Part shown: piece after piece, positions 42,323 to 62,534 of the stretch | Layout of the letters: every line of letters begins with the position of its first letter | Position numbering within the stretch: position 1 is the stretch's first letter | Assembly: GCA_903839085.1 (NCBI GenBank) | Contig: CAIMBE010000076.1 | Coordinates: forward strand, 1 to 64,000 | Length of the DNA: 64,000 bases | Source: an uncultured beta proteobacterium | GTDB taxonomy: Bacteria; Pseudomonadota; Gammaproteobacteria; Burkholderiales; Burkholderiaceae_C | Direction of reading: 5' to 3' | Made by a program: the position numbers and the translations under genes | The notes under the pieces: model-generated | Database searches by the model: none | The model's input: the letters and a program-made list of their open reading frames with translations, nothing else | Told to the model about the DNA's origin: nothing

Positions 42323-42832
42323 CTATGAGTTGGCCGTGATATCTTGCTTGAGTTTGCCCAGGAGACCGGTCAGCTGCTGAAGTTCCGCTGGATCCAGATC
42401 GCCAAGCAGCGAGCTGACCCACCGTTCATGCTGAACGGCCATTTTCCGGAACAGCTTGGTCCCCTTGGGGGTCAAACTGATGGCGTAGGCGCGGCGATCA
42501 TTCGGGTCGTCGCGCCGCTGGACCAGGTCTTCCTCGATCAGGCGGTCGGTCAGCGCGGTGATGTTGCCGCAGGTCACCATCAGCAGCCTCGACAATTCCT
42601 TCATTTTCAGACCTTCCGGATAGCGGTAGAGCTGAGACATGAGGTCAAAGCGTGGCAATGTGGTGTCAAACCCGCTCCGCAGTTCCGTGCGCAAACGGAT
42701 CTCCATCAGGTGGTAACAAGCCACCAGGCGCACCCACATCCGCAGGGGCGTGTGGCCATCATCGCTCAATGCGACGGGCAGCGCGACGCCAGAGCTTGGC
42801 TGCTTGCTGGCTACTCGATCACGTTTTGTCAT
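42323..42832 (-). CDS. MarR family transcriptional regulator
   Basis: FDLMSQLYRYPEGLKMKELSRLLMVTCGNITALTDRLIEEDLVQRRDDPNDRRAYAISLTPKGTKLFRKMA; MarR wHTH and wing. Confidence 0.92.
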   Translation of the reverse strand: MTKRDRVASKQPSSGVALPVALSDDGHTPLRMWVRLVACYHLMEIRLRTELRSGFDTTLPRFDLMSQLYRYPEGLKMKELSRLLMVTCGNITALTDRLIEEDLVQRRDDPNDRRAYAISLTPKGTKLFRKMAVQHERWVSSLLGDLDPAELQQLTGLLGKLKQDITANS

Positions 42833-44776: not shown

Positions 44777-45385
44777 TTAGGGCAAAGTCGTCCTGCGACG
44801 CCCCGGAAATGCCAGCGCCTCGGTCAGCATGTAAGCCGCCTGCGCGTAAGAGGTCGGGCAAATCGCGAAGCATTCCTGGCAGTCCCAGCAGGCCTGTGCC
44901 GCCCGCTTTGGAATGAAGCTGATTTCGCGCCTGGGGCCGTTCTCGATGAAGCCGACGGCGTGCTCGCCCTTGACCTCGGCGCAGTAGCGCACGCACAGGC
45001 CGCACATGACGCAGAAGATCGGCTCCTTCTCGAAGCGGTTGCGGTCAGCGCCGTACTCGTAGGCCAGGCGCAGCAATTCCGGTGCGTCGGGTGCATGGGC
45101 CATCAGTTCCTCGATGATCACGCGGCGAATCCGGTCAACTTTTTCGGAACGAGTGCGAACGACCAGATCCTGCTCAACCGGGTAGGTGCAGGACACCACG
45201 TAGCTGGTCTTGCCGCGCGACTCGACCTCCACCATGCACAGGCGGCAGCCGCCATAGGCCTCCAGCTTCTCGTGGTGACACAGCGTCGGAATGTTGACGC
45301 CGGCCTGGCGCGCCGCTTGCAGCACCGTCGAGCCGGCATCGGCGGTGACCTCCCTGCCGTCGATCTGCAATGTGGTCGCGCTCAT
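44777..45385 (-). CDS. bamI: NuoG-like [2Fe-2S]/[4Fe-4S] protein (BamI homologue, cluster 1)
   Basis: MSATTLQIDGREVTADAGSTVLQAARQAGVNIPTLCHHEKLEAYGGCRLCMVEVESRGKTSYVVSCTYPVEQDLVVRTRSEKVDRIRR...CVMCGLCVRYCAEVKGEHAVGF. Confidence 0.87.
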   Translation of the reverse strand: MSATTLQIDGREVTADAGSTVLQAARQAGVNIPTLCHHEKLEAYGGCRLCMVEVESRGKTSYVVSCTYPVEQDLVVRTRSEKVDRIRRVIIEELMAHAPDAPELLRLAYEYGADRNRFEKEPIFCVMCGLCVRYCAEVKGEHAVGFIENGPRREISFIPKRAAQACWDCQECFAICPTSYAQAAYMLTEALAFPGRRRTTLP

Positions 45386-47040
45386 TTCGCTTCGCTCCCG
45401 GCGCCAATGCGCGCCTCGTATTCGCCCTTGAAATAGCGCAGCATGCTCTTGAGCGGATCGGATGAGGTCTTGCCCAGCGCGCACAGGCTGCCCAGACTGG
45501 TGACCTCCATCAGATCGGTCAGCCGGTCCAGATCAAATTTCTTGCCCCTGCCTTCAGCGATGTTGGTCAGGATCTTCAACATCTGCCACATGCCTTCACG
45601 GCAGGGTACGCATTTGCCGCAGGACTCCCTGACCAGGAAATCGAGCAGATAGCGTGCCACCTCGACCATGTCGGTATCCTCGTCCATGATCAGCAGGCCG
45701 CCGGCGCCGATCGGGGCGCCGAGCTTGGACATCTCGTCAAAATCGAGCGTGGCGTCGATCAGGTGGGCCGGCAGGGACCCGCCCATGGCGCCGCCGAAAT
45801 GGACCGCCTTGAGTCCCTTGCCATCGCGCACGCCGCCGCCGATGTCAAAGATCAGGGTGCGCAGCGAGGTTCCCATCGGCACTTCGACGATGCCGCTGTT
45901 GACGACGTTGCCCGACAAGGACACCAGCTTGGTGCCTTTGCTCTTTTCCGAGCCGATGCTGGCAAACCAGTCGGCACCCTTCTCGATGATCTGCGGCACG
46001 TTGGCCCAGGTCTCGACGTTGTTCAGGTTGGATGGCTTGTCCCAGATGCCCGAGACCGAGGTGCGGATGTACTTGGGTCGCGGCTCGGGCGCATTGCCCT
46101 CGATCGAGCGCATCAGCGCCGAGGACTCGCCGGAGACGAAGATGCCGACGTCGAAGTGCAGTTCGACATGGAAGCCAAAGCCGCTGCCCAGGATGTTGTC
46201 GCCAAGAAAGCCGTAGGCCTCGGCTTGTGCCAGCGCGGCCTTGACGTGCTCGACCAGCCGCGGCGCATCGTGGCGCGTGTAGACGAAACCCAGTTGCGCC
46301 CCGATGGCGTAGGCGCCGATGATCAGGCCTTCGAGCACCCTGTGCGGATTGCCGGTGAGCATGGCGCGGTCCATGAACGCGGCGGACTCGCCCTCGTGGC
46401 CGTTGACGATGACGTACTTGGTCTTCGCGGGGGCGTTGCGGGTGGTTTCCCACTTCGAGCCGGCCGGAAAACCGCCGCCACCACGGCCACGCAGGTTGGC
46501 GCGTCGGACCTCGTCGAGCACCTGCTCGGGCGTCATGCGGGTCAAGGCCTTGACCAGTGCCGCGTAGCCGCCGACGGCAAGGTAGTCCTCGATGCTCAGC
46601 GGGTCGATGCGGATGTTGTCCCCCGTCAGCAGCCGCATCTGGTGCTTGTAATAGGGCACCTCGTTCATGTGCACCGCTTTGGCGCCGGTCAGGGGGTCGC
46701 GGTAGACGCACTTCTCGAAAACCTCGTCATTCAGCGTCGCGGCGACGATGCCTGGCACGTCGTCGGGCGTCACCTCGAAGTAGCAGACGTCCCTCAGTCC
46801 GGCCACGACGTTCGGGCCCTTTTCGCAATAGCCGTGACAACCGGTCACGCGCAAATCGATCTTCGCCTCCAGGCCTTGTCTGGCGATCTCGCTCCTGAAC
46901 GCGCTGGCGACGGCCACCGAGTCCAGGCCGTCGCAGGCGGCACCGGCGCAAACCGCGATGCAGGGCCTGGCCGGGTCGCGGCGCGCCAGGATGTCGGCGC
47001 GCAGCCTGTCAAGTTCAGCCGCTGATTGGATCTTGGGCAT
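45382..47040 (-). CDS. bamH: NuoF-like NAD(P)H:FMN subunit (BamH homologue, cluster 1)
   Basis: MPKIQSAAELDRLRADILARRDPARPCIAVCAGAACDGLDS...LRGRGGGGFPAGSKWE...SCGKCVPCREGMWQM; NuoF signatures. Confidence 0.9.
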   Translation of the reverse strand: MPKIQSAAELDRLRADILARRDPARPCIAVCAGAACDGLDSVAVASAFRSEIARQGLEAKIDLRVTGCHGYCEKGPNVVAGLRDVCYFEVTPDDVPGIVAATLNDEVFEKCVYRDPLTGAKAVHMNEVPYYKHQMRLLTGDNIRIDPLSIEDYLAVGGYAALVKALTRMTPEQVLDEVRRANLRGRGGGGFPAGSKWETTRNAPAKTKYVIVNGHEGESAAFMDRAMLTGNPHRVLEGLIIGAYAIGAQLGFVYTRHDAPRLVEHVKAALAQAEAYGFLGDNILGSGFGFHVELHFDVGIFVSGESSALMRSIEGNAPEPRPKYIRTSVSGIWDKPSNLNNVETWANVPQIIEKGADWFASIGSEKSKGTKLVSLSGNVVNSGIVEVPMGTSLRTLIFDIGGGVRDGKGLKAVHFGGAMGGSLPAHLIDATLDFDEMSKLGAPIGAGGLLIMDEDTDMVEVARYLLDFLVRESCGKCVPCREGMWQMLKILTNIAEGRGKKFDLDRLTDLMEVTSLGSLCALGKTSSDPLKSMLRYFKGEYEARIGAGSEAK

Positions 47041-47049: not shown

Positions 47050-47502
47050 CTACTCGTAGCGCCTGAGAACTTCTTCGACCTTGTCGGGTGTCATGCGAGG
47101 GTGGTGCTTGCCGTCGATGATCAGTTCCGGACCGATGCTGCAACTGCCCAGGCAACTGCCGCGCTCCACGGTAAAGCGCCCATTGGCACCGGTTTCGCCG
47201 GGCTTGAGACCGGTGAGCTCCTGCACTTTCTTCATCAGCTTGGGCGCGCCGCGCAAATGGCAGGTCATGCCGGTGCAGACATGAACTTCGTGCCGTCCCT
47301 TGGGTGTCAGGCGGAAGGTCTTGTAGAAACTGGCGATCTGCATCACCTGGCTGAACGACACCTCCAGCGCCTCGGCGACCCGCTCCATGACCTCGCGTGG
47401 CAACCAGTGGTTTTCGTGCTGGATCTCGGTCAGTGCATGGATCAGCGCACCCGGCTTGCCACGGTATTTTTCGATGATGCTGGCTATGGTTTGTTCACAC
47501 AT
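47050..47502 (-). CDS. bamG: NuoE-like thioredoxin-fold [2Fe-2S] subunit (BamG homologue, cluster 1)
   Basis: MCEQTIASIIEKYRGKPGALIHALTEIQHENHWLPREVMERVAEALEVSFSQVMQIASFYKTFRLTPKGRHEVHVCTGMTCHLRGAPKLMKKV. Confidence 0.9.
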   Translation of the reverse strand: MCEQTIASIIEKYRGKPGALIHALTEIQHENHWLPREVMERVAEALEVSFSQVMQIASFYKTFRLTPKGRHEVHVCTGMTCHLRGAPKLMKKVQELTGLKPGETGANGRFTVERGSCLGSCSIGPELIIDGKHHPRMTPDKVEEVLRRYE

Positions 47503-47979: not shown

Positions 47980-48750
47980 TCAAATTGCCACGACTTGCAC
48001 TTGCTCGCCCTCGACCGTCACCACGCCGCGCTGCGCCAGTACATCCAGGAGGCGACTGACTTCCGGCAACGGCATCCTGAGGCCGGCGGCAATCTGCTCT
48101 GCCGCCATGGGCCTCGCACGTGCGTGGCCGACGATCTGGCCCATGCTCAGTTTGTCGAGGACCATCTCCCTGAACAGCGCGTCGAACTCGGCGTTGCCGC
48201 TGTATTGCTTGTGGTAGTTCTCCTCGGTGCGCACCGGCAGGCGGAAGCGCTCGCGCTCGACCAGCTTGATGTAGGGCACCAGGTCGATGGCAGCCTGCAG
48301 GCCTGCCTGGAGTTCGTCACTGCTCAGGCCCTCGGAGGAGCCCAGCGGCCCGAGGCGCTTCATGACGTCCGCGATCTGCGTCTGCGTTTCGGCGAAACGG
48401 TTTCCTTCGCCCGCCGAGACCCACTCCAGCCGCAGTCGATCCGGGTTGATGCCGATGTGCGCCAGCATGCGCTTGGCAATCATGCTGTTGCCCAGCGCAT
48501 CGTAGTTGCCCTCGGGGTTGTAATGACAATCGCCGAGGTGGCAACCGCCGACGAAGACGCCATCGGCCCCTTTGATGAAGGAGCGCAGGATGTACTCCAG
48601 ATCGACCCGGCCGGAGCACATCTGGCGTATGACGCGCAAATGCGACGGGTACTGGAAACGCGACACGCCGGCCAGGTCGGCGCCGCCGTAACAGCACCAG
48701 TTGCACAGGAAGCCGACGACGATGGGCTGGAATTGGCTCGGGGAGGCCAT
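47980..48750 (-). CDS. bamF: MvhD-like hydrogenase iron-sulfur subunit (BamF homologue, cluster 1)
   Basis: FQPIVVGFLCNWCCYGGADLAGVSRFQYPSHLRVIRQMCSGRVDLEYILRSFIKGADGVFVGGCHLGDCHYNPEGN; MvhD motifs. Confidence 0.9.
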   Translation of the reverse strand: MASPSQFQPIVVGFLCNWCCYGGADLAGVSRFQYPSHLRVIRQMCSGRVDLEYILRSFIKGADGVFVGGCHLGDCHYNPEGNYDALGNSMIAKRMLAHIGINPDRLRLEWVSAGEGNRFAETQTQIADVMKRLGPLGSSEGLSSDELQAGLQAAIDLVPYIKLVERERFRLPVRTEENYHKQYSGNAEFDALFREMVLDKLSMGQIVGHARARPMAAEQIAAGLRMPLPEVSRLLDVLAQRGVVTVEGEQVQVVAI

Positions 48751-48752
48751 GC

Positions 48753-51700
48753 TTAGCTCACTTCAAGAATGGGAATGACGCGGTTGTGGCGCAGCGACAG
48801 CGCGGCATCGATCTGATGAAACACCTCATCGTCGGTGTAGTGCTTCAGACTGATGGCGCCGGTCGGGCATTTCGAGCAGCACAGGCCGTCGCCCTTGCAC
48901 AGCACGGGGTTGACCACCGCCTTCCTGCCGCGCGGCGTGTCCTGGAACTCGATGGCGTTGTAGTTGCAAACGGAGATGCAGGCACCACACGAGACGCAGT
49001 CCTTGCCTGCCACCTCGCAGACCGCGCCCGAGGCGACGACGCTGTCTTTGGACAGCATGGTGAGGGCGCGCCCGGCCGCGGCATAGGCCTGGCTGATGGT
49101 TTCAGACAAGTGCTTCGGGTAGTGCGCCGTGCCGCACAGGTAGACGCCTTCGGCGGCGAAGTCGACCGGCCGCAGCTTGACATGCGCCTCCTGAAAGAAG
49201 CCGTCCGGCGACAGCGGCACCTTGAAGAAGCGGGCGATCTCCTGCGCGTCCGCCGGCGGGATGACGGCGGCCGACAGGACCAGCTTGTCGACATCGATCT
49301 GCAGTTTCTTGCCGAGCACCGGATCGGTTGCCGTGACCCGGATGTAGTCGCGACCACCCTCTTCGATGGCTTGCACCGTCGGCTTGTCGTTGGGCTCGTA
49401 GCGGATGAACTGGACGCTCTTGTTGGCCGCCTCACGGTAATAGTCTTCCTTGAAGCCGTAGGTGCGCATGTCGCGGAACAGCACGTAGATCTCGGCCTTC
49501 GGCCGCAGCGCGCGCATCTTCAGCGCGTTTTTCATCGCGCCGCTGCAGCAGACGCGCGCGCAGTAGTTGCGGTCTTCCTGGCGGCAGCCGACGCACTGGA
49601 TCATGACCAGGCGCTCGACGCGGTTGAGACTCTCGTCTTCGGCGCCGATCTTTTCTTCGAGTTCAAGCTGCGTGATGACGCGGTCGTTCTTGCCGTACAG
49701 GTACTCCGTCGGCCTCAACTCCTGCGCGCCCACGGCGACGATGGCGACGCCGTGCTTGATGCTGCGCAGGCGGTGCCTGGCCTTGACCCTGGTTTCGAAA
49801 TTGCCGACGTAGCCGTCGACCGCCATGATCTGGGCCTCTGTGATGACGTGGATGTCGCGGTGCTGGTAGACCTTGTTCTTCAGGTCGGCGAGGAAGGGCG
49901 GCACCGCCATGCCCTCGGCCGTGTAGCGCAGACGGTTGGCAATGCCACCCAGTTCGGCGGACTTCTCCAGCAGATAGGTTTCGTGCCCCTGGTTGGCCAG
50001 CATCAGAGCACTGGTCATGCCGGCCACGCCGCCGCCAATCACCATGGCGACCTTGTTGATCGGCAACTCGTATTCGCCCAGCGGTTGCAGCGTCCCGGCG
50101 CGCGCCACCGACATGCGCACGATGTCCTTGGCCTTGGCGCTGGCCACCTCGGGCTCCTTGGAGTGCACCCAGGAGCAGTGCTCGCGGATGTTGGCCATGT
50201 CAAAGTAGTACTGATTGATGCCGGCCTCGCGCAGCGTGTCGCGAAACAGCGGCTCATGCGAGCGCGGTGTGCAGGCGGCGATGACGACACGGTTGAGCCC
50301 CTTGTCGCGGATCGTGTCGGAGATCGCCTGGGCGGTATTGGTGGCACAGGCGAACAGGCTTTCCTCGACGTGGACCACGTTCTCCAGCCCCTTGGCGTAC
50401 TCGACGACACCCGGCACATCGACCACGCGGCCGATATTGGCGCCGCAGCGGCAAACAAAGACGCCGACCTTGGGCGTTTCGTTGGCGGTGTCACGCTCGG
50501 CCGGGTAGACGCGCTCGGTCGACAACTGGCCACGGCGCGACTTCAGCAACTGCCCGATCTGGGCGCTGGCCGCGCTGGCGGTGTAGACCGCTTCGGGAAT
50601 GTCCATCGGTCCCATGAAAGCGCCACTGACGAAAATGCCGGCTCGACTGGTCTGCAGCGGATTGAACGGATCGGTCGTGCAGAAGCCGTGGGCGTTGAGT
50701 TCGATGCCGAAAATGCGCGCGAACCTCTGCGCATCCTTGGGCGGGTTGATGCCCACCGAGAGCACCACCAGTTCGAACTCTTCTTGCCTAACGCCGTCGT
50801 CGGTCGCGTAGCGAATGGTGACGTTCTTGGTGACCGGATCCTCGCCGCCGATCGAGGTGTAGCTGCGAATGAACTGGACGCCGGGAAGGCGCTCGGCGCG
50901 CTGGTAGAAGCGCTCAAAATCCTTGCTGTAGGCGCGGATGTCGTTGTGAAAGATGCGCGCTTCCAGATCGGGCACATGGTCCTTGGCCAGGATCACCTGT
51001 TTTTGCGTGTAGGCACAGCACACCGCCGAGCAGTAGGTGTTGCCACCGGCCACGGTCTGGCGTGAACCGACGCAGTGCAGCCAGGCCACCTTGTGCGGAT
51101 GCTTGCGGTCGCTTGGACGCAGGATCTGTCCCTCGTGCGGGCCGGTGGCGGCGAGCAAACGCTCGAAGTCGAGGCTGGTGACGACGTTCTCGATGGTGCC
51201 GTAGCCGTAGTCGCCCCGAATCTTCGGGTCAAAGGTTTCGTAGCCGGGCGACAAGACGATGGCGCCGACCTTGAGGTAAACCTTTTCCGCGGTCTGCTGG
51301 AAGTCGATGGCGCCTTTTTCGCAGACGTTCTGGCAGATCGTGCAGGACTTGTTGTTCAGGTAGAGGCAGCTGTCGTCAATGTAGGTCACCAGGGGAACGG
51401 CCTGCGAGAAGTAGATGTGCACCGCCTTGCTGAGCGACAGATCCACGTTGAACGGGTCGGGCACCTTGACCGGGCAGTACTCGGTGCAAGCGCCGCATCC
51501 GGTGCAGGCGTCGGCGATGACGTAGCGCGGTTTCTTGATCAGGGTCACCGTGAAGTCGCCGGCCGCTCCCTCGACGGCATCGACCTCGGTGTAGGTCATG
51601 ATCTCGATGTTCGGGTGGCGGTCGCACTCGATGAACTTGGGCGACTCGATGCACATCGAGCAGTCGATGGTCGGGTAGGTCTTGTCGAGCTGCGCCATCT

Positions 51701-51869
51701 TGCCGCCTATGGTGGGCGCCTTGTCGACCAGGTAGACCTTGAAGCCCGCGGTGGCCATGTCCAGTGCCGCCTGAATGCCGCTGATGCCGCCGCCCAGGAC
51801 CAGCACGTCACCCAGGCAGTTGTCGCCGGTGCGCTGCGTGCGCTGCCTGAGCATTTGTTGGATGTCCAT
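48753..51869 (-). CDS. bamE: HdrA-like flavin/iron-sulfur subunit (BamE homologue, cluster 1)
   Basis: MDIQQMLRQRTQRTGDNCLGDVLVLGGGISGIQAALDMATAGFKVYLVDKAPTIGGKMAQLDKTYPTIDCSMCIESPKFIE; duplicated HdrA-like modules and 4Fe-4S motifs. ORF-track start at 52106 is overextended. Confidence 0.9.
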   Translation of the reverse strand: MDIQQMLRQRTQRTGDNCLGDVLVLGGGISGIQAALDMATAGFKVYLVDKAPTIGGKMAQLDKTYPTIDCSMCIESPKFIECDRHPNIEIMTYTEVDAVEGAAGDFTVTLIKKPRYVIADACTGCGACTEYCPVKVPDPFNVDLSLSKAVHIYFSQAVPLVTYIDDSCLYLNNKSCTICQNVCEKGAIDFQQTAEKVYLKVGAIVLSPGYETFDPKIRGDYGYGTIENVVTSLDFERLLAATGPHEGQILRPSDRKHPHKVAWLHCVGSRQTVAGGNTYCSAVCCAYTQKQVILAKDHVPDLEARIFHNDIRAYSKDFERFYQRAERLPGVQFIRSYTSIGGEDPVTKNVTIRYATDDGVRQEEFELVVLSVGINPPKDAQRFARIFGIELNAHGFCTTDPFNPLQTSRAGIFVSGAFMGPMDIPEAVYTASAASAQIGQLLKSRRGQLSTERVYPAERDTANETPKVGVFVCRCGANIGRVVDVPGVVEYAKGLENVVHVEESLFACATNTAQAISDTIRDKGLNRVVIAACTPRSHEPLFRDTLREAGINQYYFDMANIREHCSWVHSKEPEVASAKAKDIVRMSVARAGTLQPLGEYELPINKVAMVIGGGVAGMTSALMLANQGHETYLLEKSAELGGIANRLRYTAEGMAVPPFLADLKNKVYQHRDIHVITEAQIMAVDGYVGNFETRVKARHRLRSIKHGVAIVAVGAQELRPTEYLYGKNDRVITQLELEEKIGAEDESLNRVERLVMIQCVGCRQEDRNYCARVCCSGAMKNALKMRALRPKAEIYVLFRDMRTYGFKEDYYREAANKSVQFIRYEPNDKPTVQAIEEGGRDYIRVTATDPVLGKKLQIDVDKLVLSAAVIPPADAQEIARFFKVPLSPDGFFQEAHVKLRPVDFAAEGVYLCGTAHYPKHLSETISQAYAAAGRALTMLSKDSVVASGAVCEVAGKDCVSCGACISVCNYNAIEFQDTPRGRKAVVNPVLCKGDGLCCSKCPTGAISLKHYTDDEVFHQIDAALSLRHNRVIPILEVS

Positions 51870-51883: not shown

Positions 51884-53038
51884 CTAGAGTGCGTCGCGGA
51901 TGATTTCGGTGATGTCCTTGACCTCGATGCCGGCACCGCCATCGGGTCGGCCCAGCCGACTGTCCTCGAAATTGGTGATGCAGTACGGGCAGCAGGTGGC
52001 GATTACCTCGGCGCCGGTATCGACTGCCTGCTGCAGCCGAATGTCGGAGAAGCGCTCGCTCTTGGGCGTTTCCATCCAGATGCGGCCGCCGCCGCCGCCG
52101 CAGCACATGCTGTTCATGCGCGACTCGGCCATCTCCTTGAGTTGCAAGCCCGCAATGCTCTTCAAGGCTTCGCGCGGCTGTTCGAAAATTCCGTTATGCC
52201 GACCCAGATAGCAGGGATCGTGAAAGGTGATCGTCTTGTTGATCGGCTTGGTCAGCTTGAGGCGGCCTTCCTTGAGCAACTGAAAAATGAACTCGGAGAT
52301 GTGCATGACGTCGAAGTGCACATTGAATTCGGGGTACTCGTTCTTGAAACTGTGATAGCAGTGGGGTGAAGAGACCAGTATCTTCTTGACGCCCTTGTTG
52401 ATGAACTCGCCGATGTTGCGCCGAGCCAGGCTCTTGAACAGGGCCTCGTCGCCAGTCTTGCGTATGCTCTCGCCGCAGCAGCTTTCATCTTTGCCGAGGA
52501 TGCCGAAGTCCACCTGGGCCGCCTGCAATATCTGCACCGTGGCGGTGGCGATCTTTTTGGCGCGCGGATCGTAGCTCAGGTAGCAGCCGGGGGAGTAGAG
52601 GATTTCCATGCCCTCGGCAAAGCGCTTGACGCCCAGGTCCTTGGCCCATTCGCCGCGCTTGTCGCGTGGCTCGTTGAACGGGTTGCCCTCGGCTCTGAGG
52701 CTGGCCGCGATGCGCGGTATCGGCGCTGCCGCGCCGGCGAAGACGTCGAACTCGGTGGCCACGCGGCGCAAGGCGATGCCGGACTCGATCTGCTTGACAT
52801 CGCGCGGACAGACCAGCGGGCACTTGCCGCAGGTGGTGCAGCGCCAGATGTCCTCGTTGTCGATTTCGGTCAGACCGAGCGCTGCCTCGCGCACCAGCTT
52901 GCGCATGCTGAACTTGCCGACCCGGCTCCAGGGGCAAACGGTGTCGCACAAGCCGCACTGGTAGCAATTCTGGAAAGCACCGCCGCCGTGGTTCTTGATA
53001 ACGTCAATGATCTCTTGCTGGGGCGTTACGGTTTCCAT
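51884..53038 (-). CDS. bamD: HdrD/GlpC-like heterodisulfide reductase-type protein (BamD homologue, cluster 1)
   Basis: METVTPQQEIIDVIKNHGGGAFQNCYQCGLCDTVCPWSRVGKFSMRKLVREAALG...ESCCGESIRKTGDEALFK; two CCG domains. Confidence 0.9.
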   Translation of the reverse strand: METVTPQQEIIDVIKNHGGGAFQNCYQCGLCDTVCPWSRVGKFSMRKLVREAALGLTEIDNEDIWRCTTCGKCPLVCPRDVKQIESGIALRRVATEFDVFAGAAAPIPRIAASLRAEGNPFNEPRDKRGEWAKDLGVKRFAEGMEILYSPGCYLSYDPRAKKIATATVQILQAAQVDFGILGKDESCCGESIRKTGDEALFKSLARRNIGEFINKGVKKILVSSPHCYHSFKNEYPEFNVHFDVMHISEFIFQLLKEGRLKLTKPINKTITFHDPCYLGRHNGIFEQPREALKSIAGLQLKEMAESRMNSMCCGGGGGRIWMETPKSERFSDIRLQQAVDTGAEVIATCCPYCITNFEDSRLGRPDGGAGIEVKDITEIIRDAL

Positions 53039-53067: not shown

Positions 53068-53607
53068 CTAGAGCTTGGCGAGCTTGGCGACTGTCTCCAG
53101 CACCTTTTGCAGCCCGTACTTGTCGATCATCGACTCGACCCCGGATTCAACCTCGCCGACCTGCACCGGCTGCTCATCAACCTCCTCCTCGCGCTCTTCA
53201 TAGATCAGCGCGCCGTTGGGGCACCATTCGACGCACTTGGGCATCTTCAGCGGCGGGTTGTCCTCGCACATGTCGCACTTGAGCGGCAGGCCGGAGTCGG
53301 GCTCCTTGAACAGGTCGCGCGAGGGGCAGGAGGCACGGCAAAAATCGCAATTGCTGTATTCCTTGCCGTCGATGATGTACTTGTTCTTGCCGCTGCATTC
53401 AGCCGCCGTGTACTCGCCCGCGTAGACCGGCAGGTAGATGTCCTTCAGCGGATCGCGAATGATCTGGATGCGCGCACGCTTGGGGTTGGCGCTGCTGTAG
53501 CGCGGTCTCGCGTGGAAGGCAGAGCAGGCAAGTTCGCAGGCTCTGCAACCAATGCAATTGTTGGCATTGATGGTGATGTACTTGTTGATCCTCGTGACCT
53601 TGGCCAT
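53068..53607 (-). CDS. bamC: 4Fe-4S ferredoxin-like electron transfer subunit (BamC homologue, cluster 1)
   Basis: MAKVTRINKYITINANNCIGCRACELACSAFHARPRYSSANPKRARIQIIRDPLKDIYLPV...NCDFCRASCPSRDLFKEPDSGLPLKCDMCEDNPPLKMPKCVEWCPNGAL. Confidence 0.88.
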   Translation of the reverse strand: MAKVTRINKYITINANNCIGCRACELACSAFHARPRYSSANPKRARIQIIRDPLKDIYLPVYAGEYTAAECSGKNKYIIDGKEYSNCDFCRASCPSRDLFKEPDSGLPLKCDMCEDNPPLKMPKCVEWCPNGALIYEEREEEVDEQPVQVGEVESGVESMIDKYGLQKVLETVAKLAKL

Positions 53608-53637: not shown

Positions 53638-54069
53638 TCAGGCCTCGTTGGCAGCCCCGAGCTCGCGCCACTTGTAGTCGATCACCTCGAGCAGCACGCC
53701 GTTCATCTTCTTGGGGTGCACAAAGGCGAACTCGCAGTCGCGAAACGAGCGCAGTCCGCCGATCATCGGGTAGCCCATGGCCTTGATTTCCTCGACGGCG
53801 GCTGGCGTGCTGTCGACGTTGAAGCTGATCAGCATCACGCCTTCGCCGCGTTTTTCGATGAACTTGGCGACATCGCCGTCGCTGGTTGTCGACTCCATCA
53901 GCTCGAAGCCGACGCCGTCGAGCCAGTAGCGCGCCACGCGGATCTTCTCGGGTTCGTCAACATAGGCGTCGTCGGGTCCGGTCTTGCCGAGCATCGGCTC
54001 CCAGACCTTGCGCGCCTCATCGAGGTTGCGCACTGCGATGCAGATGTGATCGAGCTTGTTGACCTTCAT
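53638..54069 (-). CDS. VOC/glyoxalase superfamily protein (methylmalonyl-CoA epimerase-like)
   Basis: MKVNKLDHICIAVRNLDEARKVWEPMLGKTGPDDAYVDEPEKIRVARYWLDGVGFELMEST...GLRSFRDCEFAFVHPKKMNGVLLEVIDYKW. Confidence 0.82.
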   Translation of the reverse strand: MKVNKLDHICIAVRNLDEARKVWEPMLGKTGPDDAYVDEPEKIRVARYWLDGVGFELMESTTSDGDVAKFIEKRGEGVMLISFNVDSTPAAVEEIKAMGYPMIGGLRSFRDCEFAFVHPKKMNGVLLEVIDYKWRELGAANEA

Positions 54070-54460: not shown

Positions 54461-55123
54461 TCAAGAGACCGGCATGATGGGGATAACGACCCGTGGTTTG
54501 GCAACTGCCTTGACAGCGCGGGCTGCGGTCTTTCGCTGGCCTGGAAAGGCCAGCGCTTCGGTCAGCAGGTAAGCGGCCTGCGCATAGGATGTCGGACAGA
54601 TCGCAAAACATTCCTGGCAGTCCCAGCATTCGATCCTGGCGACTTCCGGAACAAAGCTGATCTGGCGCACCGAGCCGTTGTCGAAGAAGCTGACCGCGTT
54701 CTTTTTCTTCACCTCGTTGCAGTAACGCACGCACAGTCCGCACAGCACGCAGAACGACGCTTCCCGTTCAAACCGGTCCCGGTTGGCGCCATACTCCTCG
54801 GCCATTTTCACCAGTTCGGGGGCGTCCGGCGCGTGCGCCATCAGTTCCTCGACCAGCACCTTGCGGATCTTGTCCACCTTCTCCGAGCGGGTGCGCACCA
54901 CGATGTCGTTCGCCACCGGATAGAGGCAGGACACGACGTGGCTGGTCCAGCCGCGCGATTCGACTTCGACCATGCACAGGCGGCAGCCGCCGAAAGCTTC
55001 GAGCTTCTCGTGATGGCACAGCGTCGGGATGTAGATGCCTGCCTGCTGCGCGGCCTGCAGCAGCGTCATGCCGGCCTTGGCCTTGACCTGCCGTTCATCG
55101 ATCTTCAAAACGATTTCGGTCAT
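54461..55123 (-). CDS. bamI: NuoG-like iron-sulfur protein (BamI homologue, cluster 2)
   Basis: MTEIVLKIDERQVKAKAGMTLLQAAQQAGIYIPTLCHHEKLEAFGGCRLCMVEVESRGWTSHVVSCLYPVANDIVVRTRSEKVDKIRK; paralogue of 44777-45385. Confidence 0.88.
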   Translation of the reverse strand: MTEIVLKIDERQVKAKAGMTLLQAAQQAGIYIPTLCHHEKLEAFGGCRLCMVEVESRGWTSHVVSCLYPVANDIVVRTRSEKVDKIRKVLVEELMAHAPDAPELVKMAEEYGANRDRFEREASFCVLCGLCVRYCNEVKKKNAVSFFDNGSVRQISFVPEVARIECWDCQECFAICPTSYAQAAYLLTEALAFPGQRKTAARAVKAVAKPRVVIPIMPVS

Positions 55124-56772
55124 TTGCTGTCGCTCCCGCCGGCAATGCGCGCTTCATACTCGGGCTTGAAATAGCGGAACATGCTTTTGAGCGGGTCGCC
55201 CGAGGTCTTGCCCAGCGCGCACAGGCTGGCCACTCCCGTCACCTCGATCAGGTCCTCCAGTTGCTCAAGATCACCGGGCTTGCCCTCGCTCTTGGCCAGG
55301 CGGCTCAGGATCTGCAGCATCTTTGCCATGCCTTCACGACACGGCACGCACTTGCCGCACGATTCCTTGGTCAGGAAGCCCATCAGGTAGCGCGCCACCT
55401 CGACCATGTCGGTGTCCTCGTCCATCAGCAGCAGGCCGCCGGCGCCGATCGGCGCGCCGAGCTTGGACATGCCGTCAAAGTCCAGCGGCGCATCGATCAG
55501 GTCGGCCGGGATCGAGCCGCCCATGGCGCCGCCGAAGTGGATCGCCTTGAGCGTCTTGCCGTCGCGCACGCCGCCGCCGATGTCAAAGACCAGGGTGCGC
55601 AGCGGCGTGCCCATCGGCACTTCGACGATGCCGCTGTTGACAACGTTGCCCGACAGCGAAATCAGCTTCGTACCCTTGCTCTTTTCCGAACCGATGCTGG
55701 TGAACCAGTCGGCACCTTTCTCTATGATCTGGGGCACGTTGGCCCAGGTCTCGACGTTATTGAGGTTGCTCGGCTTGTCCCATATGCCCGAGACCGAGGT
55801 GCGGATGTACTTGGGCCGCGGTTCGGGCGGATTGCCTTCGATCGAGCGCATCAGGGCGCTCGACTCGCCTGAGACGAAGATGCCGACGTCGAAGTGCAGT
55901 TCGCACTCGAAGTCGAAGCCGGTGCCAAGGATGTTCTTGCCCAGCAGGCCGTATTCGGCTGCCTGGGCCAATGCGTTCCTGACATGCTTTTCCAGCAGCG
56001 GCATGTCGTGGCGCGTGTACATAAAGCCCTTTTGCGCGCCGATGGCGTAGGCGCCGATGATCAGGCCTTCGAGGATCTTGTGCGGGTTGCCGGTGAGCAT
56101 GGCCCGGTCCATGAAGGCGGCCGATTCGCCTTCGTGGCCGTTGACGATGACGTACTTGGTCTTATCCGGCGCGTTGCGGGTGGTCTCCCATTTCAAGCCG
56201 GCCGGGAAGCCGCCGCCGCCGCGGCCTCGCAGGTTGGCCTTCTTGACCTCGTCGAGCACCTGCTCCGGGCTCATCGAGGTCAAGGCCTTGACCAGCGCCT
56301 TGTAGCCGTCAAGCGCCAGATAGTCGTCGATCCTCATCGGGTCCAACTTCGGGTTGTCGCCGATCAGAAGGCGCGTCTGGTGCTTGTAGAACGGCACCTC
56401 GTGCATGTGCACCGCCCTGGCGCCGGTATTGGGGTCCTGGTACACCAGACGCTCGACGACCTCGCCCTTGAGCGTGGCTGTGATGATCTCCGGCACGTCG
56501 ACCGGGCTGACCTCGAAGTAGCAGATGTCCCCGGGAGTGACCACCACGTTCGGACCCTTCTCGCAGTAGCCGTGGCAGCCGGTGGTTCTGACCTCGACTG
56601 CGTTGCCGAGCGTGGCGGCTTGCGCGACGAAGGCAGCAGCGACCGCCGCCGAGTCCATGCCGTCGCAGGCTGCGCCGGCACAAACCGCGATGCAGGGTCT
56701 TGCGGGATCCCGGCCTGCCAGGATTTCTGCTCTGAATTTTTCCAGCTCAGCGGCTGATTGGAACTTTGGCAT
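55120..56772 (-). CDS. bamH: NuoF-like subunit (BamH homologue, cluster 2)
   Basis: MPKFQSAAELEKFRAEILAGRDPARPCIAVCAGAACDGMDSAAVAAAFVAQ...; paralogue of 45382-47040. ORF-track start at 56874 is overextended. Confidence 0.9.
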   Translation of the reverse strand: MPKFQSAAELEKFRAEILAGRDPARPCIAVCAGAACDGMDSAAVAAAFVAQAATLGNAVEVRTTGCHGYCEKGPNVVVTPGDICYFEVSPVDVPEIITATLKGEVVERLVYQDPNTGARAVHMHEVPFYKHQTRLLIGDNPKLDPMRIDDYLALDGYKALVKALTSMSPEQVLDEVKKANLRGRGGGGFPAGLKWETTRNAPDKTKYVIVNGHEGESAAFMDRAMLTGNPHKILEGLIIGAYAIGAQKGFMYTRHDMPLLEKHVRNALAQAAEYGLLGKNILGTGFDFECELHFDVGIFVSGESSALMRSIEGNPPEPRPKYIRTSVSGIWDKPSNLNNVETWANVPQIIEKGADWFTSIGSEKSKGTKLISLSGNVVNSGIVEVPMGTPLRTLVFDIGGGVRDGKTLKAIHFGGAMGGSIPADLIDAPLDFDGMSKLGAPIGAGGLLLMDEDTDMVEVARYLMGFLTKESCGKCVPCREGMAKMLQILSRLAKSEGKPGDLEQLEDLIEVTGVASLCALGKTSGDPLKSMFRYFKPEYEARIAGGSDSK

Positions 56773-56780
56773 GGGATGAC

Positions 56781-57233
56781 CTAGTCGTATTGTTTCAGGA
56801 CGTCGGCGACCTTTTCCGGCGTCATCCGGCCATAGTGCTTGCCGTCGACGATCAGTTCGGGTGCGATGCTGCAACTGCCTAAACAGGCGCCGGTTGCAAA
56901 CGTGAATCTGGCGTCGGCGTCGGTCTGCCCGTCCTTCAGGCCGGTGAGTTCCTCGACCTTGGCCTGCAGCCGGGCCGCCCCGCGCAGGTGGCAGGTCATC
57001 CCGGTGCAGACGTGCACTTCGTGGCGTCCCTTCGGGGTCAGGCTGAAGGTCTTGTAGAAGCTGGCGATCTGCATCACCTGGGCGAACGGCACCGCCAGCG
57101 CATCGGCCACCTGGTGCATCACTTCCCTGGGCAGCCAGTGGTTTTCGTGCTGGATCTCCACCAGTGCGTGGATCAGCGAGCTAGGCTGGCCCCGGTATTT
57201 CTCGATGATGGCGTTGACCTTTTCTTCGCTCAT
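56781..57233 (-). CDS. bamG: NuoE-like subunit (BamG homologue, cluster 2)
   Basis: MSEEKVNAIIEKYRGQPSSLIHALVEIQHENHWLPREVMHQVADALAVPFAQVMQIASFYKTFSLTPKGRHEVHVCTGMTCHLRGA. Confidence 0.9.
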   Translation of the reverse strand: MSEEKVNAIIEKYRGQPSSLIHALVEIQHENHWLPREVMHQVADALAVPFAQVMQIASFYKTFSLTPKGRHEVHVCTGMTCHLRGAARLQAKVEELTGLKDGQTDADARFTFATGACLGSCSIAPELIVDGKHYGRMTPEKVADVLKQYD

Positions 57234-57300
57234 GGTAAGGGTGAACCTTTGGTTGCCTGTGGGTTAAGGGGACAGAACATCGCCATTGCGACATTTCTTT

Positions 57301-57379
57301 CGTCATCGCGAGCGAAGCGTGGCGATCCATGGCTTCGGGCTGCATGGATTGCCACGTCGCTGCGCTCCTCGCAAGGACG
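57301..57379. repeat. REP-like palindromic element, copy 10 (bamF-bamG gap of cluster 2)
   Basis: CGTCATCGCGAGCGAAGCGTGGCGATCCATGGCTTCGGGCTGCATGGATTGCCACGTCGCTGCGCTCCTCGCAAGGACG. Confidence 0.88.
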
Positions 57380-57420
57380 GTGCTCCTTCATGTTTCGGGG
57401 TGACGTTGATGCCATGACAG

Positions 57421-58191
57421 TCAGGCGGCCGCGGCGACCTGTGCCTGCTTGCCGTTCAGACGGACCATGCCCTGCTCCGACAGGGCAAGCAGGTGGTGCG
57501 CCACTTCCGAGTCCTGGATGCCGAGCTTGTGCGCAATGGCATCGGTCGTCGTCACATCGGCGCGCAGTGCGCCCATGATGCGACTCATGGTCAGCTTGTC
57601 AAGCACCAGTTCCTTGAACAGCGGCTCGTAGTCGGGCCGGGCGAAGAACTCCTTGTAACCGTCTTGCGTCCGCTTGGCGACCCGGAAGCGCTCGCGCTCG
57701 ACCAGTTTGTAATACGGCACCAGTTGCGTCGCCGCCTTCAGGCCGGCCTGAAGGTCGGCGACGTCGCGACCTTCCGAAGAGCCGAAAGGGCCGAGGCTTT
57801 TGATCTTGGCGCCAAATTCGTTCATGATTTCTGCGAAGCGTATGCCTTCTCCGGCGGAGACCCACTCAAGGCGCAGCCGGTCGGAATTGACGCCGATGTT
57901 CTCCAGGATGCGCTTGGCGACGAAGCTGTTGCCCAGGGCGTCGTAATTGCCTTCGGGGTTGTAGTGGCAGTCGCCCAGATGGCAGCCGCCGATAAACACC
58001 CCGTCGGCCTTCTTGGCGAAGGCGCGGAAGATGAACTCCAGGTCGACCCGGCCCGAACACATCAGTCGGATCACGCGCAGATAGGGCGGATACTGGAAGC
58101 GCGAGACGCCGGCAAGATCGGCGCCGCCATAGCAGCACCAGTTGCACAGGAAACCGACGATGACCGGTTTGAATTCGGAGGGAGCAGCCAT
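57421..58191 (-). CDS. bamF: MvhD-like subunit (BamF homologue, cluster 2)
   Basis: MAAPSEFKPVIVGFLCNWCCYGGADLAGVSRFQYPPYLRVIRLMCSGRVDLEFIFRAFAKKADGVFIGGCHLGDCHYNPEGNYDALGNSFVAKR. Confidence 0.9.
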   Translation of the reverse strand: MAAPSEFKPVIVGFLCNWCCYGGADLAGVSRFQYPPYLRVIRLMCSGRVDLEFIFRAFAKKADGVFIGGCHLGDCHYNPEGNYDALGNSFVAKRILENIGVNSDRLRLEWVSAGEGIRFAEIMNEFGAKIKSLGPFGSSEGRDVADLQAGLKAATQLVPYYKLVERERFRVAKRTQDGYKEFFARPDYEPLFKELVLDKLTMSRIMGALRADVTTTDAIAHKLGIQDSEVAHHLLALSEQGMVRLNGKQAQVAAAA

Positions 58192-58232
58192 TCTGGGTAC
58201 CTTAGGTCGGCGTTGTCAATATTCGGCGCGCA

Positions 58233-61200
58233 TCAGACTTCTTCGAGCGCGGCGTCGATCTGGTTGAACACTTCGTCGTCCGTGTAGTGCGAGAGGCTGA
58301 TGGCCGCGGTCGGACACTTGGCCACGCACAGCCCGTCGCCCTTGCACAGCACCGCATTGACCACCGCCTTCTTGCCGCGCGGCGTGTCCTCGAACGAGAT
58401 CGCGCCGTAGGTGCACACCGAGATGCAGGCACCGCAGGAGACGCAGTCCCTGGCGGCCACCGAGCACACGGCGCCCGAAGCAACCACCGTGTCGCGGGAC
58501 AGCAGGGTGAGGGCGCGTCCGGCCGCGCCGTAAGCCTGGGTGATGGTTTCCGACATATGCTTCGGATACTGCGCCGTGCCGCACAGGTAGACACCTTCCG
58601 CGGCAAAGTCCACCGGCCGCAGCTTGGCGTGGGCCTCCTGGAAGAAGCCGTCCGGGCCCAAGGGCACCTTGAACATGCGCGCCAGCTCGGCGGCGCCGGC
58701 GGCGGGGATCACCGCCGCAGCGAGCACGATGGCATCGACGTCGAGTTCGAGCTTCCTGCCCAGAATCGCGTCAAACGCGGTGACCCGGATGAAGCTGCGC
58801 CCGCCCTGTTCGAGGCTTTCGAGTTGCGGCTTGTCGTCCGGCTCAAAGCGAATGAACTTGACGTTCTGGTTGGACGCCTCGCGGTAGTAATCCTCGCGGA
58901 ACCCATAGGTCCGGATGTCGCGGAACAACACGTAGATTTCGACCTCCGGCTTGAGCGCCTTCATCTTCAGGGCGTTCTTCATGGCGCCGCTGCAGCAGAC
59001 GCGGGCACAATAGTTTCGGTCGTCGTTGCGGCAGCCGACGCACTGGATCATCACGACGCTCTGCGCCGTCATCAGTTTTTCTTCCTGCCGGGCGAGCTTT
59101 CCCTCCATCTCCAGCAGCGTCATCACCTGGTCGCTCTTGCCGTACAGGTACTCGGTCGGCTTGTACTCGGCGGCGCCGGTGGCGATGATGGCGGCGCCAT
59201 GCTTGATGGTGCGTGTGCGGCCCTTGGACTTGACCGTGGTCGTGAAATTGCCGACGTAGCCATCCACATGGGTGACCGCGGCGTCCATGATGGCGTGGAT
59301 CTTCGGATGCCGGTAGACCTTTTTCTTGAGGTCCTTGATGAAGGCCTGCACGTCCATGCCCTCGAGCGTGAAGTGGATGCGGTTGGCGACACCGCCGAGG
59401 TCCGAGGCCTTCTCGATCAGGTAGGTTTCGTAGCCCTGCTCGGCCAGCGTGTGGGCGCTGGTCATGCCGGCGACGCCGCCGCCGACCACCAGCGCGGTCT
59501 TGTCCACCGGCAGCGAGAACTCGTCCAGCGGCTCGAGCTTGCCGGCACGCGCCACCGACATGCGCACGATGTCCTTGGCCTTCTCGGTCGCGGCCTCCTG
59601 CTCCTTGGAGTGCACCCAGGTGCAGTGCTCGCGGATGTTGGCCATGTCGAAGAAGTACTGGTTGACGCCGGCCTCGCGCAGGGTGTCGCGGAACAGCGGC
59701 TCGTGCGTGCGCGGCGTGCAGGCGGCGACCACCACCCGGTTCAGGCCCTTGTCGCGGATGGTGTCGGAGATCGCCTTGGCGGTGTTGGTGGCGCAGGCGA
59801 ACAGGCTCTCCTCGACGTGCACCACGCCCGGCAAGCCCTTGGCGTACTCGGCGATGCCCGGCACGTCGACCACGCGGCCGATGTTGGCGCCGCAGCGGCA
59901 GACGAAGACGCCGACCCTGGCATCGTCCTCAGAGACATCTTTCTCTACCGGATAGACCCGTTCCTCGTTCAACTGCCCGCGCCGCGACATCAGCAGGTTG
60001 GAGGCCAGGGCGCTGGCGCCGCTGGCGCCCATCACCGCCTCGGGAATGTCCATCGGACCCTGGAAGGCGCCGCTGGTGAATATGCCCGCTCGACTGGTCT
60101 GCATCGGATTGAAGGGCTCGACCTTGCAAAAGCCGTGCTGGTTCAGCTCGATGCCAAAAACTTTGGAGAAGCGCGGGGCATCCTTGGGCGGTGCCAGGCC
60201 GACCGAGAGCACCACAAGTTCGAAGAACTCCTCCACCACCCCGTCCGGCGTGGTGTAGCGAATCGAGACATCCCCGGTTACCGGGTCTTCGCTGCCGACC
60301 GAGACGTAGCTACGGATGAAATGGACGTCGGGCAGTTTCTGTGCGCGCTGGTAGAAGCGCTCGAAATCCTTGCCATAGGAGCGGATGTCGTTGTGGAAGA
60401 TCTTGGCGTGCAGGTCGGGCAGGTGGTCCTTGGCCAGGATCACCTGCTTTTGCGTGTACGAGCAGCACACCGCCGAGCAGTAGCTGTTGGCGCCCTCAGG
60501 GTTGACCTGGCGCGAGCCGACACAGTGAATCCAGGCGATCTTGTGCGGATGCTTCTTGTCCGAGGGACGCAGGATCTGCCCCTCGTGCGGGCCGGTGGAG
60601 CAGAGCAGGCGCTCGAAGTCCATGCTCGTGACCACATTGGCGAACTGTCCGTAGCCGTAATCGTTGCGCGGCAAGGGGTCGAAGGTCTCGTAGCCGGGCG
60701 ACAGGATGATGGCGCCGACCTTGACCTTGATCTTCTCGGCTTTCTGGCCGAAGTCGATCGCGTTGTTTTCGCAGACAGTCTGGCAGATATTGCAGGTCTT
60801 GTCCTTGAGGAACAGGCAACTGTCGTCGATGTAGGTGACCAGCGGCACGGCCTGCGAAAAGTAGATATGCACGGCCTTGTTCAAGGACAGGTTCTGGTTG
60901 AACGGGTCGGGAACCTTGACCGGACAGTATTCGACGCAGACCGTGCAGCCGGTGCATTTGTCCTCGTTGACGTAGCGCGGCTTTTTCAACAGCGTGACGG
61001 TGAAGTCGCCGGGCTGGCCTTCGACGCTGTCGACGTCGGTGTAGGTCATCAACTGGATGTTGGGCTGCCGGTCGGTTTCGATGAACTTGGGCGACTCGAT
61101 GCACATCGAGCAGTCATTGGTCGGAAAGGTCTTGTCCAACTGCGACATCTTGCCGCCGACGGTGGGCGACTTCTCCACCAGGTAAACCTTGTAACCGCAC

Positions 61201-61334
61201 GACGACAGATCGAGCGCGGCCTGGATGCCGCTGATGCCGCCGCCGACGACCATCACGTCGCCCATGTTGTTGTCGTCCGCCGAACGAAGAACGTTCTGCG
61301 TGTTCCATTGCTGCTGTAAGAGTCCGAATTCCAC
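58233..61334 (-). CDS. bamE: HdrA-like subunit (BamE homologue, cluster 2)
   Basis: GDVMVVGGGISGIQAALDLSSCGYKVYLVEKSPTVGGKMSQLDKTFPTNDCSMCIESPKFIETDRQPN; paralogue of 48753-51869. Probable GTG start at 61334 (VEFGLLQQQWNTQNVLRSADDNN) with a GGCGAGG ribosome-binding site; ORF-track start at 62288 is overextended. Confidence 0.87.
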   Translation of the reverse strand: MEFGLLQQQWNTQNVLRSADDNNMGDVMVVGGGISGIQAALDLSSCGYKVYLVEKSPTVGGKMSQLDKTFPTNDCSMCIESPKFIETDRQPNIQLMTYTDVDSVEGQPGDFTVTLLKKPRYVNEDKCTGCTVCVEYCPVKVPDPFNQNLSLNKAVHIYFSQAVPLVTYIDDSCLFLKDKTCNICQTVCENNAIDFGQKAEKIKVKVGAIILSPGYETFDPLPRNDYGYGQFANVVTSMDFERLLCSTGPHEGQILRPSDKKHPHKIAWIHCVGSRQVNPEGANSYCSAVCCSYTQKQVILAKDHLPDLHAKIFHNDIRSYGKDFERFYQRAQKLPDVHFIRSYVSVGSEDPVTGDVSIRYTTPDGVVEEFFELVVLSVGLAPPKDAPRFSKVFGIELNQHGFCKVEPFNPMQTSRAGIFTSGAFQGPMDIPEAVMGASGASALASNLLMSRRGQLNEERVYPVEKDVSEDDARVGVFVCRCGANIGRVVDVPGIAEYAKGLPGVVHVEESLFACATNTAKAISDTIRDKGLNRVVVAACTPRTHEPLFRDTLREAGVNQYFFDMANIREHCTWVHSKEQEAATEKAKDIVRMSVARAGKLEPLDEFSLPVDKTALVVGGGVAGMTSAHTLAEQGYETYLIEKASDLGGVANRIHFTLEGMDVQAFIKDLKKKVYRHPKIHAIMDAAVTHVDGYVGNFTTTVKSKGRTRTIKHGAAIIATGAAEYKPTEYLYGKSDQVMTLLEMEGKLARQEEKLMTAQSVVMIQCVGCRNDDRNYCARVCCSGAMKNALKMKALKPEVEIYVLFRDIRTYGFREDYYREASNQNVKFIRFEPDDKPQLESLEQGGRSFIRVTAFDAILGRKLELDVDAIVLAAAVIPAAGAAELARMFKVPLGPDGFFQEAHAKLRPVDFAAEGVYLCGTAQYPKHMSETITQAYGAAGRALTLLSRDTVVASGAVCSVAARDCVSCGACISVCTYGAISFEDTPRGKKAVVNAVLCKGDGLCVAKCPTAAISLSHYTDDEVFNQIDAALEEV

Positions 61335-61348
61335 GTTGATGTCCTCGC

Positions 61349-62503
61349 CTAGATCGCTTCCCGAATGACTTCGGTGATGTCCTTTATCTCGATGGAGGCA
61401 CCCCCATCCGGCCGGCCCAGGCGGCTGTCCTCGAAATTGGTGGTGCAGTAGGGGCAGGCTGTCACCATGATCTGCGCCCCCGTGCCCACGGCCTGCTCCA
61501 GACGCAGATCGGAAAAGCGCTCGCCCTTGGGCGTTTCCATCCAGATGCGACCGCCCCCGCCTCCGCAGCAGAAGCTGTTCTTGCGGTTCTCGGACATCTC
61601 CTTCAACTGCAGTCCCGGCACGCTCTTGAGTGCCTCGCGCGGCTCGTCGTAGACGCCGTTGTGACGGCCGAGGTAGCAGGGATCGTGGAAGGTGACGGTC
61701 CGGGCGAATTCCTTGGTCAGCTTCAGCCGGCCCTCGTTGATCAGCTGGTGCAGGAACTCGGTGATGTGGATCACCTCGAAATTGACCTTGAACTCGCGGT
61801 ACTCGTTCTTGAAGCTGTGATAGCAGTGCGGCGACGACACCAGGATCTTCGTGACGCCGTGGCCGACAAAGTTGCTGATGTTCTGGCGTGCCAGGGTCTT
61901 GAACAGCTTCTCGTCGCCGGTCTTGCGGATGCTCTCGCCGCAGCAGCTCTCGTCGGTGCCAAGGATGCCGAAGTCGACGCCCGCCGCCTGCAGTATCTCC
62001 ACCGTGGCCTTGGCTATCTTCTTGCCGCGCGGATCGTGTGCGAGGTAGCAGCCGGGCGAGTAAAGGATTTCCATGCCTTCCTCGAAACGCCTGACGCCGA
62101 GATCCTTGGCCCAGTCGGCCCGCTTGGCGCGCGCTTCGCCGAACGGGTTGCCCTCGGCTCTGAGGCTGGCGGCCACACCCGGGATCGGCGCCGCGCCGCC
62201 GGCGAAGACGTCGTATTCGGTGGCGATGCGGCGCAGCGCGACGCCGGACTCGATCTGCTTGACATCGCGCGGGCAGACCTGCGGGCATTTTCCGCAGGTG
62301 GTGCAGCGCCAGATGTCCTCGCTGTCAATCTCGGTCAGGCCGAATGTGGCCTCGCGCACCACCTTGCGCATGCTGAACTTGTTGACCCGGCTCCAGGGAC
62401 AGACGGTGTCGCACATGCCGCACTGGTAACAGGATTTGAAAGCATCGCCGCCGGCCGCCTTGATGGCGTCGATGATTTCCTTTTGGGGGGCTGCTGTTTC
62501 CAT
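61349..62503 (-). CDS. bamD: HdrD/GlpC-like subunit (BamD homologue, cluster 2)
   Basis: METAAPQKEIIDAIKAAGGDAFKSCYQCGMCDTVCPWSRVNKFSMRKVVREATFGLTEIDSEDIWRCTTCGKCPQVCPRDVKQIESG. Confidence 0.9.
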   Translation of the reverse strand: METAAPQKEIIDAIKAAGGDAFKSCYQCGMCDTVCPWSRVNKFSMRKVVREATFGLTEIDSEDIWRCTTCGKCPQVCPRDVKQIESGVALRRIATEYDVFAGGAAPIPGVAASLRAEGNPFGEARAKRADWAKDLGVRRFEEGMEILYSPGCYLAHDPRGKKIAKATVEILQAAGVDFGILGTDESCCGESIRKTGDEKLFKTLARQNISNFVGHGVTKILVSSPHCYHSFKNEYREFKVNFEVIHITEFLHQLINEGRLKLTKEFARTVTFHDPCYLGRHNGVYDEPREALKSVPGLQLKEMSENRKNSFCCGGGGGRIWMETPKGERFSDLRLEQAVGTGAQIMVTACPYCTTNFEDSRLGRPDGGASIEIKDITEVIREAI

Positions 62504-62534
62504 GCGTTCCTATTGTGTCGTTTTATCGGAGGTC

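Follow-up and report, generated by a model that had tools for sequence, protein, structure and literature searches.

A conserved genomic link between a VOC-fold protein and a variant class II aryl-CoA reductase points to a possible module for anaerobic 2-aminobenzoyl-CoA degradation

Organization of the locus

The gene analyzed here encodes a small VOC-fold protein and is located in the first 64,000 nucleotides of contig CAIMBE010000076.1 from an uncultured beta proteobacterium; this entire stretch is referred to below as the window. The VOC gene heads a cluster, bam cluster 1, that encodes eight subunits of a class II reductase, with the order VOC, C1, D1, E1, F1, G1, H1, I1, B1 (Table 1). 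As stated in the preliminary description of this locus, the VOC gene is co-oriented with bamC1 and lies directly upstream of it, with a gap of 30 bp (ATG at 54069, end of the stop codon at 53638, bamC1 start at 53607), and the 5' position in the cluster is occupied by the VOC gene rather than by bamB, bamB1 being located at the 3' end. The VOC start codon follows closely a purine-rich AAGGAG sequence and agrees with the starts of the orthologues (MKVNKxDHIC). A scan of positions 53500-54700 for promoters and terminators found no element on the minus strand, and the VOC gene and the bam cluster are presumably co-transcribed. A single copy of the VOC gene is present in the genome, and a search of plasmids produced no matches at E 1e-25.

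Table 1. Genes of bam cluster 1 and its surroundings (window coordinates)
Gene or feature	Coordinates	Strand	Supporting evidence
VOC-fold protein gene, 143 aa, head of bam cluster 1	53638..54069	-	PF13669; AlphaFold2 pLDDT 90.7; Foldseek to MCE
bamC1, polyferredoxin subunit	53068..53607	-	Fer4 domains; 70% to bamC2
bamD1, HdrBC-like subunit	51884..53038	-	CCG and Fer4 domains; 78% to D2
bamE1, HdrA-like subunit	48753..51869	-	HdrA2-type match 931 bits; 74% to E2
bamF1, FlpD/MvhD-like subunit	47980..48750	-	PF02662
bamG1, NuoE-like subunit	47050..47502	-	PF01257
bamH1, NuoF-like subunit	45382..47040	-	PF01512 and PF10589
bamI1, NuoG-N/Fer2-like subunit (inferred start)	44777..45385	-	homology to bamI2, 73%
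bamB1, variant class II aryl-CoA reductase catalytic subunit, short MAHGEGDEFH loop	42840..44750	-	AFOR domains; 811 bits to BamB 4z3w; loop and clade
MarR-type regulator	42323..42832	-	PF01047
bifunctional salicylyl-CoA 5-hydroxylase/oxidoreductase family (2-aminobenzoyl-CoA monooxygenase/reductase type)	39876..42182	-	NF006101 1247 bits, cut-off 1078
enoyl-CoA hydratase family protein, same cluster as the NF006101 gene	38952..39797	-	NF006107 476 bits, cut-off 330
acyl-CoA dehydrogenase	37783..38955	-	PF00441, PF02770
4HBT-type thioesterase	37322..37786	-	PF13279; 62% homologue beside VOC in Azonexus L055
canonical cluster 2, bamB2-I2	54461..64000	-	bamB2 continues beyond the window, as far as contig position 65028

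The genes for BamC and for the D-I subunits of the class II complex are encoded together in the window, and the D1-I1 set is 62-78% identical to the corresponding set of the canonical cluster 2, which is located upstream of the VOC cluster and is followed, beyond bamB2, by a bamA fragment at the contig end. Alongside the two class II clusters, the window contains a class I bcrC gene (643 bits against TIGR02263) together with probable bcrB, A and D genes (29535-34635, minus strand); the presence of class I and class II benzoyl-CoA reductases in one genome is unusual. Directly downstream of bam cluster 1 are genes for a fused monooxygenase/oxidoreductase, a hydratase, a dehydrogenase and a thioesterase, a gene set that resembles the one known from Azoarcus evansii for aerobic degradation of 2-aminobenzoyl-CoA (the abm pathway); in contrast to the abm pathway, these genes come after an oxygen-independent class II reductase.

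The VOC protein is unlikely to be a methylmalonyl-CoA epimerase

The VOC protein scores above the Pfam cut-offs of two glyoxalase domain models (PF13669, 52 bits versus 27; PF00903, 32 bits versus 20.6). The confident AlphaFold2 model, compared using Foldseek, displays the paired beta-alpha-beta-beta-beta fold, and the closest structures are methylmalonyl-CoA epimerases (MCE; E 1.8e-13; TM ~0.83 to the S. coelicolor enzyme). The initial characterization of the protein as MCE-like thus stands with respect to the fold but not with respect to family membership: the score against TIGR03081 is 74.4 bits, under the cut-off of 114.95, and catalytic residues are lost. Compared to the solved epimerases (6wf6, S. 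coelicolor; 3rmu, human; the best solved matches are 25-32% identical), the VOC protein shares the common fold and retains H8 and E128, which occupy two of the metal-ligand positions, whereas the second metal-binding His is replaced by a Leu/Ile/Val-type residue (L80), and E43, Q60 and S115 of the S. coelicolor enzyme by V45, E56 and F109, respectively.

These features are common to the entire VOC family, in which H8, E56 and E128 are invariant at the metal-ligand positions and V45 is invariant as well, this last position being a weaker test for an MCE given that E43 may not be conserved in the homologues from human and Bacillus either. The 95 aligned family members all contain an MLIS-type sequence in place of the HH motif. 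By contrast, the motif is present in each of the 14 MCE-like paralogues that were examined in Desulfuromonadia genomes carrying BamB; two of these genomes (G524 and G527) also carry the VOC gene together with a BamB1 of the type described below. Because the metal-binding His and the catalytic Glu of MCE are lost, we conclude that the VOC protein is most likely not a methylmalonyl-CoA epimerase, an identity that the TIGR03081 score also argues against. The suggestion that the protein epimerises a cyclic acyl-CoA is not supported, given the same, family-wide replacements.

BamB1 belongs to a separate clade of class II reductase subunits

BamB1 belongs to the same family as BamB of Geobacter metallireducens (4z3w): the two proteins share the AFOR domains and the tungsten-ligand Cys322, as well as a BamC partner and the D-I module. 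BamB1 is, however, only 55-58% identical to the canonical BamB proteins of the same genomes, and its active-site loop is shorter by approximately 13 residues. The loop residues E251, H255, E257 and H260 have been described as invariant and as forming the Zn/proton-relay site (PMC12096430); among these, only H260 is clearly retained in BamB1, and counterparts of E251 and H255 are absent. In a phylogenetic tree of 80 BamB-type proteins, the 18 that have the MAHG[E/D]GDxFH loop, BamB1 of the window among them, group in one clade (SH-aLRT 98), and the 43 canonical BamB in another (support 100). The 18 sampled members of the former clade, hereafter GEGD-type BamB1, come from Betaproteobacteria, Desulfuromonadia and Desulfocapsaceae. 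The bamB paralogues of Geotalea daltonii, which were considered as a potential link to BamB1, showed no tie at the sequence level.

Further diversity is apparent in this family. BamB1-like proteins with other loops (FLHEDDEEWH, MAHEEDEEFH) are encoded in G506 (L130 and L183) and G744 (L159), and no VOC gene was seen on the respective contigs. BamB-like genes occur in tandem at five Desulfuromonadia loci (L197-L201; e.g. L197, 6855-10840), and in each pair it is the upstream gene that encodes Ser or Asn in the position of the tungsten-ligand Cys.

Conservation of the VOC-BamB1 linkage among bacterial lineages

The linkage noticed in the window is retained in genomes of different classes and phyla. 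BamB1 (87-100% identity) was detected in 7 of the 90 genomes of the window's genus, and the VOC gene precedes bamC1 in the window's genome and in the four other genomes of the genus with sufficient flanking sequence; in these four, bamB1 directly follows bamC1, and D1-I1 are missing between them. The organization in Azonexus is like that in the window (VOC-C1-D..I-B1 followed by an NF006101-type gene), and the VOC gene is associated with BamB1/C1 also in Desulfuromonadia and Desulfocapsaceae. Altogether, the VOC gene belongs to the same cluster as the GEGD-type bamB1 in 14 of the 18 cases; in three more genomes (G482, G485 and G074), it is found on another contig, next to an assembly break, and in the remaining one (G034), where bamB1 is at a contig edge, no VOC gene was found. 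Among Desulfuromonadia, all 7 genomes with GEGD-type BamB1 encode the VOC protein, compared to 5 of the 34 other bamB genomes (one-sided p = 3.5e-5, ignoring kinship).

A scan of genome contigs identified 122 VOC relatives, of which 80 were retrieved (68-96% identical in the best segment) from Beta- and Gammaproteobacteria, Desulfobacterota and one Acidobacteriota MAG. Given that the bam-linked VOC proteins split between two separate supported clades, the link with bam genes was either retained or established more than once. The VOC-BamB1 linkage is far beyond chance, and conservation rules out a purely accidental association.

Genomic context of the VOC genes in related genomes

The genes that accompany the VOC gene outside the window provide clues to the pathway involved. 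A bamA gene scoring above the TIGR03200 cut-off adjoins the VOC gene in Azonexus L055 (45 bp) and in G673 (L237), is found approximately 0.7 kb upstream of it in L101, and is clustered with the VOC gene and with bcr genes of class I in L114; in L238 (98% identical to L237) and L088, the bamA homologues were identified by BLAST only. Isatin hydrolase-type proteins accompany VOC and BamB1 in L194, L195 and L052 (341 bits to isatin hydrolase A for the L195 protein), 2-oxoacid oxidoreductase subunits are encoded at the VOC loci L119, L189, L193 and L194, and an IorA-like protein was recognized by eye in L052. In three members of the window's genus, a ligase gene is divergent from the VOC gene, and the best solved relative of the one such ligase tested is anthranilate-CoA ligase (284 bits compared to 243 for benzoate-CoA ligase). 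These genes for an anthranilate-type ligase, isatin hydrolase and 2-oxoacid oxidoreductase are linked to the VOC gene in relatives, and none of them is found within the window itself. An NF006101-type gene follows bamB1 in the window, in the window's genus and in Azonexus; this model does not separate salicylyl-CoA from 2-aminobenzoyl-CoA enzymes.

Other VOC loci include genes for a B12-mutase (13 loci), CoA-transferase III, Mo-hydroxylase and acyl-CoA dehydrogenase. Those with mutase and CoA-transferase III genes resemble the anaerobic indoleacetate (iaa) pathway of Aromatoleum aromaticum, in which mutase, CoA-transferase III and acyl-CoA dehydrogenase genes likewise occur; the part of the account of this pathway considered here (PMC8360864) contains no role for a VOC protein, and genes of the iaa type were not found in the window. 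In Gammaproteobacteria (L063, L084, L093, L096-L098), the VOC gene is the last gene of an operon of this appearance, with genes for mutase, Mo-hydroxylase and CoA-transferase III. In Desulfobacterales (L058, L061, L070, L075, L078, L089 and others), a conserved operon consists of genes for an NCR-like OYE reductase, a 175-aa protein, a ferredoxin, the VOC protein, an aminotransferase and HdrA-like proteins; the OYE protein beside some of the VOC relatives is closest to 2-naphthoyl-CoA reductase. In L053 (3100-10471), UbiX-like and UbiD-like genes and two CoA ligase genes, assigned by eye, directly precede the VOC gene, and BamB1 is missing. A 3-hydroxybenzoyl-CoA pathway, brought to mind by nearby XDH-type genes, was rejected: the best matches are of xanthine dehydrogenase types, below every cut-off, and isatin hydrolase is better compatible with indole.

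A possible pathway for 2-aminobenzoyl-CoA

Because the isatin and anthranilate genes lead to 2-aminobenzoyl-CoA and BamA acts on 6-oxocyclohex-1-ene-1-carbonyl-CoA, 2-aminobenzoyl-CoA emerges as the shared theme of these neighborhoods. This context suggests that 2-aminobenzoyl-CoA originating from indole or anthranilate is broken down without oxygen by the VOC protein and the variant reductase. The substrate is probably 2-aminobenzoyl-CoA. The reading that we favor, although it falls somewhat short of even chances, is a module for the anaerobic degradation of 2-aminobenzoyl-CoA (anthraniloyl-CoA), the catalytic part of which would consist of VOC, BamC1 and BamB1. Under this scheme, BamB1C1, supplied with electrons by the D-I module, would reduce the ring of 2-aminobenzoyl-CoA by two electrons, yielding a cyclic enamine, 2- or 6-aminocyclohexa-1,5-diene-1-carbonyl-CoA. 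The VOC protein would then bind the enamine CoA ester and facilitate its conversion, through the shift of a proton and the release of ammonia by hydrolysis, to 6-oxocyclohex-1-ene-1-carbonyl-CoA. This ketone is what the ring-opening hydrolase BamA normally acts on, so that the route would not pass through benzoyl-CoA. Conversion of the enamine expected from a 1,5-reduction to the ketone by proton shift and hydrolysis would be a suitable step for an MCE-like fold. The assignment of this tautomerising or deaminating step to the VOC protein is itself only possible, on somewhat lesser odds than the module as a whole. The early proposal that the VOC protein isomerises a cyclic acyl-CoA product or marks a distinct downstream pathway fits with these findings, which point to a 2-aminobenzoyl-CoA pathway feeding BamA.

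Several observations count against such a module: the VOC gene occurs with bamA and canonical bamB in G673/G674, and with the NCR-like type III reductase and the aminotransferase in Desulfobacterales; in the window's own genome, the closest homologue of the ligase (54% identical) is encoded on another contig; and 29 of the 95 VOC loci, many of them on short contigs, contain no recognized aromatic genes within 10 kb. In addition, earlier physiological work on Azoarcus evansii describes a different route, the anaerobic conversion of anthranilate to benzoyl-CoA by reductive deamination of 2-aminobenzoyl-CoA (PMC4539516). It is accordingly conceivable, if rather unlikely, that BamB1C1 reduces 2-aminobenzoyl-CoA and the VOC protein removes ammonia with re-aromatisation, the resulting benzoyl-CoA being channeled into the ordinary pathway via the second reductase cluster; the canonical bamB cluster present in the window and in several other genomes is compatible with this route. 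However, the direct adjacency of VOC and bamA favors a product used by BamA, and the reducing power just invested would presumably be lost upon re-aromatisation.

There is a smaller chance that the VOC protein is a non-catalytic accessory of dearomatising reductases that, for example, binds a labile CoA ester or gates the BamB1 active site. The loss of one metal ligand, the high conservation of the protein between phyla (70-96%) and its association with reductase genes of the class I, II and III types are all in line with such a role, but the invariant H8, E56 and E128 suggest a retained active site. Lower still is the probability that the substrate is salicylyl-CoA (2-hydroxybenzoyl-CoA), with the VOC protein functioning as a dienol-ketone tautomerase that produces 6-oxocyclohex-1-ene-1-carbonyl-CoA. 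NF006101 is named for salicylyl-CoA, and the expected 1,5-reduction product would be the dienol tautomer of the BamA substrate; the isatin hydrolase, the 2-oxoacid oxidoreductases and the match of the ligase to the anthranilate-type enzyme point instead to nitrogen-bearing substrates. Equally improbable is an epimerase of branched dicarboxylyl-CoA, such as methylmalonyl-CoA or (2-aminobenzyl)malonyl-CoA: the fold, the 13 loci with mutase neighbors and an MCE reported to accept benzylmalonyl-CoA (PMC8360864) are outweighed by the TIGR03081 score, the metal His replaced in 95/95 family members and present in 14/14 paralogues, the alignment of V45 with E43 of MCE, and the lack of a mutase in the window.

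Implications

In the part of the literature that was searched, we found no paper that assigns genes to the anaerobic dearomatisation of 2-aminobenzoyl-CoA; the locus described here provides a concrete two-protein candidate for this process, with a predicted reaction that would be new to the VOC superfamily. BamB serves as a marker in metagenome surveys, where the MAHGEGDxFH signature would separate a second type of class II reductase from true benzoyl-CoA reductase. In the most far-reaching version of the proposal, which we consider unlikely although worth stating, BamB1C1 would be a dedicated oxygen-independent 2-aminobenzoyl-CoA reductase coupled to a new deaminating VOC enzyme that leads straight to 6-oxocyclohex-1-ene-1-carbonyl-CoA; indole and anthranilate would then be degraded anaerobically without benzoyl-CoA as an intermediate, and the same VOC protein would serve class I and type III reductases elsewhere.
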